From positions 1 to 64,000 of the forward strand of contig CAILHZ010000020.1 of assembly GCA_903834135.1 (NCBI GenBank): DNA of 64,000 bases, written 5' to 3'. Numbering within the stretch: the first letter of the stretch is position 1; each line of letters opens with the position of its first letter. Under the pieces are notes generated by a model. That model made no database searches. It was not told the origin of the DNA and was given only the letters and a program-made list of their open reading frames with translations. This document shows positions 59,394 through 60,444 of the stretch, in pieces. Source of the stretch: an uncultured Opitutia bacterium (GTDB lineage Bacteria; Verrucomicrobiota; Verrucomicrobiia; Opitutales; Opitutaceae). Position numbers and translations under genes: made by a program.

Positions 59394-59804
59394 TTATTGG
59401 CCCATCTGAACGATCCGGTTGAATTGATCCTTAGTTAGGCTAGATACAGATAGACGGCTATTTCGCACAAGGGCAATCGTGGAGAGTGAGGCCTCCTGCT
59501 TGATTTGCGCTAGGGTCACGGGCTTAGGAAGGCCTTTTATGGCCTTTAACTCTACAGCTACCCAGCCTTCCTCTTCGGCTGTCTTATCGGGAAATGCGGC
59601 TTTGGTTACTTCAGCTATACCCATAACAGCCTTGGTTTCCACACTAGCGTAGAAAAGAACACTATCCCCAGGTTGCATAGCCTTAAGGTTATTGCGTGCT
59701 TGATAGTTGCGCACACCCTCCCAGACCGTGCGTTTATCTTTAACGAAATCGTCCCAAGAGTAGCTATCGGGTTCTTGCTTAACTAACCAAGTCTGTGGTT
59801 TCAT
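59394..59804 (-). CDS. EVE domain-containing protein
   Basis: WLVKQEPDSYSWDDFVKDKRTVWEGVRNYQARNNLKAMQPGDSVLFYAS. Confidence 0.95.
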   Translation of the reverse strand: MKPQTWLVKQEPDSYSWDDFVKDKRTVWEGVRNYQARNNLKAMQPGDSVLFYASVETKAVMGIAEVTKAAFPDKTAEEEGWVAVELKAIKGLPKPVTLAQIKQEASLSTIALVRNSRLSVSSLTKDQFNRIVQMGQ

Positions 59805-60006: not shown

Positions 60007-60082
60007 GGGCCTGTAGCTCAGTTGATAGAGCGCTTCGTTCGCAACGAAGAGGCCGTCGGTTTGATCCCGATCAGGTCCACCA
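60007..60082 (+). tRNA. tRNA-Ala (CGC) with G3:U70 and a non-canonical A19/U56
   Basis: GGGCCTG TA GCTCAGTTGATAGAGC G CTTCG TTCGCAA CGAAG AGGCC GTCGG TTTGATC CCGAT CAGGTCC A CCA. G3:U70 is the alanine identity element. Confidence 0.93.
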
Positions 60083-60095
60083 GTAATGCATAAAT

Positions 60096-60128
60096 AAAAA
60101 CACCACGCCTTTTAAAGACGTGGTGTTA
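60096..60128 (-). terminator. Rho-independent terminator for the minus-strand gene at 60166-60444
   Basis: Minus strand ACACCACG TCTTTAAAAGG CGTGGTGT TTTTATTT. Confidence 0.7.
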
Positions 60129-60165: not shown

Positions 60166-60444
60166 TTATTTTTTTTCTTTAGCTTTAGCAGCTACGATTT
60201 TTTTTAAATACTGCTCAGGATTTGCTTCAAACGCTGTTTTTTCAGATTCATCACAAACTTTTACTTCCTGTCCTTTGTAAACAAACGAGAATGGTTTCAT
60301 TTCACTTAGTTTCATTCCGCATACTATACATGTATTAAGTGGGTAGGATTCAGCGGTTTTGCTTTCATTGGCCTTGCTGCTAGGGAGTACTGAAAGAAAC
60401 ATTAATCCGAGGACAAGCGTAGCTAAAAATTTGAATATTTTCAT
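60166..60444 (-). CDS. Exported YHS/TRASH-like cysteine protein, putative metal-binding
   Basis: Signal peptide; NTCIVCGMKLSEMKPFSFVYKGQEVKVCDESEKTAFEANPEQYLKKI. Confidence 0.65.
   Translation of the reverse strand: MKIFKFLATLVLGLMFLSVLPSSKANESKTAESYPLNTCIVCGMKLSEMKPFSFVYKGQEVKVCDESEKTAFEANPEQYLKKIVAAKAKEKK

Follow-up and report, generated by a model that had tools for sequence, protein, structure and literature searches.

The tRNA-Ala(CGC) Locus

The window, i.e., the whole stretch of 64,000 nucleotides that was analyzed, carries three tRNA genes recognized by ARAGORN: tRNA-Tyr, tRNA-Gly(GCC) and tRNA-Ala(CGC). The features of the last of these and of its neighbor are as follows:

60007..60082, + strand: tRNA-Ala(CGC) gene, 76 nt, CCA encoded (ARAGORN; Rfam RF00005, 64.4 bits; MFE cloverleaf, -29.6 kcal/mol)
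60009, + strand: G3 of the G3:U70 alanine identity pair (numbering; partner U70 at 60076)
60025, + strand: position 19, A instead of G; D-loop AGTTGATA (sequence and base-by-base numbering)
60040..60042, + strand: anticodon CGC, reading GCG (ARAGORN; position numbering)
60062, + strand: position 56, T instead of C; T-loop TTTGATC (sequence and base-by-base numbering)
60076, + strand: U70 of the G3:U70 pair (numbering)
59394..59804, - strand: EVE-like protein gene adjoining the tRNA (named from its own sequence)

The first-pass annotation of this DNA had read A19 and T56 in an otherwise unbroken tRNA-Ala(CGC), and this reading holds: the gene was confirmed by ARAGORN and Rfam, and the two letters and the intact remainder (G3:U70, stems, encoded CCA) by position numbering. 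The Rfam score lies above the RF00005 cut-off of 29 bits, as befits a tRNA, all stem pairs, including G3:U70, are Watson-Crick or G-U, and U8-A14, G15-C48, G18-U55, U54-A58, A73 and CCA are unbroken. G3:U70 and A73, together with the alanine anticodon CGC, identify it as an alanine tRNA (numbering, ARAGORN). What the gene lacks is the canonical elbow of G19 and C56, in place of which it has A19 and T56. G19-C56 is a consensus feature of tRNAs, and the bacterial model does not count it among the alanine identity elements. Compared with canonical bacterial tRNA-Ala(CGC), such as that of the outgroup genomes G079 and G080, the window gene shares the anticodon, G3:U70, A73, the stems and the other tertiary positions, but has A19-U56 rather than G19-C56 and U20 rather than A20.

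The genome (2.65 Mb in 26 contigs, 94% complete) yields 45 tRNA matches, and among the tRNAs read out from them tRNA-Ala(CGC), found once, is alone in having TTT rather than TTC at positions 54-56. The GCG codon that it reads accounts for 10% of alanine codons in the 32 open reading frames of the window. A plasmid search returned only short matches around the tRNA. Downstream, a strong terminator-like hairpin with a T tail (60099-60127, - strand) sits between the tRNA and a small minus-strand gene at 60166-60444.

Two States of the 19-56 Pair in the Family and Class

A DNA search of 95 relatives gave matches in 94 of them, and A19 and T56 were both present in all 30 best homologues, some of which belong to the genus of the analyzed genome and others to many further genera of its family. 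Pairs 4-69, 6-67 and 28-42 change on both sides among these homologues; the stems covary while both letters are kept. The gene is thus constrained, and A19 and T56 accompany it. When the class was searched with a tRNA-Ala(CGC) pattern permitting any purine at position 19 and any pyrimidine at 56, 54 of 286 genomes matched, divided into 26 A-U, 28 G-C and no mixed forms. Moreover, a survey of one genome per genus plus outgroups, with any base permitted at both positions, assigned A19-U56 to 36 of the 49 family genera sampled and G19-C56 to seven, with six lacking such a gene and none being mixed; outgroup families f20 and f21 have G19-C56. Hence, the real covariation of positions 19 and 56 proposed in the first-pass annotation is supported, and relatives with only one of the two changes, for which it had advised looking, were seen neither among the 30 homologues nor in the class search or the genus survey. 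The window tRNA may thus be placed in a wider class, that of elbows with a Watson-Crick 19-56 pair, whose complementary letters change together among relatives.

The one-sided forms were also sought with general patterns, which take in only tRNAs with the AGCTCA/GAGC D-arm; within that type neither A19-C56 nor G19-U56 occurred in 200 family genomes, while the A19-U56 version of the pattern, serving as positive control, matched 75 of 100 genomes. All 77 matches of this version are tRNA-Ala, one of them with the anticodon TGC. A second alanine tRNA with the anticodon TGC, also with A19-U56 and much like tRNA-Ala(CGC), is found in G531 (contig C16, locus L292), G360 (C102) and G514 (C307), and likely represents an anticodon switch in a duplicate. 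Across all loci examined, 298 distinct tRNAs comprised 227 G-C, 71 A-U (two assigned by eye) and no mixed forms; as the A-U loci were picked by pattern, only the absence of mixed forms is informative in this count. Position 20 differs too, the G19-C56 relatives having mostly GGAAGAGC and the A19-U56 genes GATAGAGC. A locus with the same tRNA type is present in Lacunisphaera, which makes Opitutaceae (Verrucomicrobiota) the probable family of the host. In five genomes from genera g9, g13, g20 and g48 (G020, G024, G031, G059 and G313) tRNA-Ala(CGC) was not found; on the dnaE tree they group as a single clade, in which this isoacceptor may have been lost.

A19-U56 in Other Cellular Lineages and in Virus Contigs

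When about 85,000 species were scanned, each represented by one genome, at least 119 stretches with A19-U56 were returned, and all 80 matches listed are tRNAs. Among these and the further matches read, the commonest type is Gly(UCC) of Bacteroidales and Marinilabiliales, accompanied by Gly(GCC) in Clostridia, Bdellovibrionota, a gammaproteobacterium and a flavobacterium, Gly(CCC) in Oligoflexia, Ala(CGC) in Opitutia, Saccharimonadota and Alphaproteobacteria, Thr in small archaea, Fructobacillus, Runella and Fibrobacterota, and a single Lys tRNA; several Bacteroides species are included. Different isoacceptors in different phyla imply that these cases do not share a single origin. In 37 of these genomes, from other phyla, searched with A19 followed by C or T at position 56, T56 accompanied A19 in 52 of 52 tRNAs, and the reverse one-sided pattern, G19-U56, was absent from the same 37 genomes. 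A19 was met in only two of 148 Bacteroidota genomes, each time together with T56; the swap is therefore confined largely to particular orders. The Bacteroidales also contain a tRNA-Arg(ACG) (L144:6592-6666 and L146:962-1036) with D-loop TGAATAGAGC and T-loop TTTGAAT, which is a further A19-U56 case lying outside the pattern used.

Virus contigs gave at least 120 matches to A19-U56 tRNAs, and those listed represent more than 20 isoacceptors; Thr(UGU) is the most frequent among them (L294-L475). One-sided forms were met here, with A19-C56 in eight virus contigs, all in tRNAs, and G19-U56 in 27 as pattern matches. One-sided steps at 19-56 thus exist but are rare, and the rare forms in virus contigs offer a path between the A-U and G-C states. 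As read from the sequences, the two-sided swap is kept in most of the family and has arisen anew in tRNAs of other phyla and of viruses, with both sides almost always changed together.

Switches on the dnaE Tree and History of the Locus

On a dnaE tree of 53 genomes, a well-supported group, comprising 44 rows, contains the A-U genes and encloses five islands of G-C genes (G045; G050; G025, G041 and G048; G022; G362). At least five concerted changes of 19-56 are needed on this tree, a count that rests on dnaE as a single marker and is open to transfer of either dnaE or the tRNA gene, and a tree forcing the A-U rows together was rejected (p = 1.7e-34). With the same caveat about transfer, a single origin of A19-U56 within the family is not supported by this tree. 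Most of the G-C islands carry the GGAAGAGC loop, as do the outgroups; hence retention or replacement of the gene is as possible as reversal.

The distribution might accordingly have arisen by horizontal replacement of tRNA genes, phage-borne ones included, rather than by repeated double substitution in place. This alternative would explain both the scatter of the A-U genes on the dnaE tree and the outgroup-like loop of most in-family G-C genes, which moreover lack linkage to the EVE-like gene, and A-U tRNAs are carried by virus contigs. However, in part of the family the EVE-like or prephenate dehydrogenase gene of the window also lies within 2 kb of tRNA-Ala(CGC); this neighbor marks an orthologous locus and is common to many A-U genomes. 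The clearest case of a switch in place is G050, in which G19-C56 is found near an EVE-like gene, whereas its congener G376 has A19-U56. In addition, the tree evidence comes from one marker gene, on which two genomes of the same genus (g11) fall apart, and the diversity of isoacceptors across phyla excludes one origin. Taken together, we regard replacement by transfer as unlikely, albeit the alternative that has to be taken most seriously.

Discussion

We propose that the window gene very probably encodes a working tRNA in which a near-isosteric Watson-Crick swap would keep the outside of the elbow flat. The 19-56 pair lies exposed as the flat end of this elbow and is recognized via stacking: 23S rRNA, RNase P and T-box RNAs stack on it, and L5 contacts it (PMC4810234; PMC9433436). 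An archaeal AlaRS contacts G19=C56 (PMC7566577). On our model, the pair would close the outer corner of the L, and the flat face would dock on the ribosome, RNase P and AlaRS, so that stacking on a Watson-Crick pair would matter more than the identity of its bases. Because stacking would outweigh base identity, the double swap could be tolerated while one-sided states would rarely be kept. The RNA would then be made, form the A19-U56 pair, be charged and work about as well as the G19-C56 form. These ideas are consistent with mutational data, since aminoacylation is kept in G19C/C56G and abolished when the pair is broken (PMC3602588). The closest precedent is an engineered Thermus pre-tRNA-Gly with the identical double change, G19A/C56U, which plant PRORP3 cleaves at about the wild-type rate (1.78 vs. 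1.67 per min; PMC5039416); that RNA is a laboratory mutant assayed with a plant enzyme, whereas the window tRNA is a natural bacterial gene.

Some observations argue against full equivalence of the two pairs. In the ribosomal E site, Arg130 of L1 touches N2 of G19, a group that A lacks (PMC3602588). C. elegans AlaRS requires G18G19; its charging activity was not restored on a compensated G18A/G19A/C56U mutant, although G18 was altered there as well (PMC10485164), while the window tRNA keeps G18. Possibly, A19-U56 is a recurrent variant that selection has favored for weaker pairing or for docking unlike that of G19-C56, tuning elbow flexibility or contacts with the ribosome or processing enzymes mainly in cellular Ala, Gly and Thr tRNAs. 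Ala, Gly or Thr make up 12 of 13 isoacceptor-by-lineage combinations in cells among the matches listed, against a small baseline of three of seven eligible tRNAs of the genome itself (rough binomial p = 3e-4), and both translocation and bypassing are altered when the elbow is changed (work cited in PMC4810234). However, the cellular events behind this bias come from the matches listed, the more than 20 isoacceptors listed from virus contigs show no such bias, and lineages shift between A-U and G-C, as near-neutrality predicts. We therefore consider selection for a distinct elbow improbable. Finally, a decaying duplicate, pseudogene or sequencing error would account for a departure from a near-universal consensus but is scarcely credible, and was rejected on score and conservation: the low score or pseudogenization against which the first-pass annotation had cautioned is nowhere apparent, the stems being unbroken; weak duplication and drift are disfavored because the genome yielded no other tRNA-Ala(CGC) and 36 genera preserve this one, with compensatory changes in its stems, and sequencing error is implausible because dozens of separate assemblies share the same letters.

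The preferred reading, a functional Watson-Crick swap, bears on how the elbow is studied. Since G19-C56 is presented as invariant (PMC6337575), sequence variation offers little means of testing its pairing, and its particular bases are readily taken to be required; two-sided swaps that occur naturally in cells and viruses separate the need for a Watson-Crick pair from the need for G and C, and this natural experiment applies to RNase P, AlaRS and the ribosome. Moreover, the swaps caution against treating G19 and C56 as indispensable in annotating tRNA genes or in assessing their function. A natural A19-U56 pair is not named in the papers searched and may be recorded in subscription papers or tRNA databases; given that several Bacteroides species have it, the databases must contain such sequences. 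Hence, the swap is unremarked in the literature searched rather than never seen.

Other tertiary pairs of tRNA show comparable behavior. Eukaryotic tRNA-Ala has unusual 15-48 and 54-58 pairs (PMC7566577), likewise a clade-wide departure from conserved tertiary pairs, but these lie at other positions, are purine-purine and are confined to eukaryotes, whereas the window tRNA has a Watson-Crick swap at 19-56. The bacterial Levitt pair 15-48 also varies on both sides, as G15-C48 or A15-U48 (PMC7566577); in contrast to it, the 19-56 pair is of the standard Watson-Crick type and is the one described as invariant. In the G19-C56 tRNA-Ala(CGC) of G050 (contig C180, locus L284), T15 and A48 replace the G15-C48 kept by its congener G376, and, judging from these letters, both partners of its Levitt pair seem to have changed as well.
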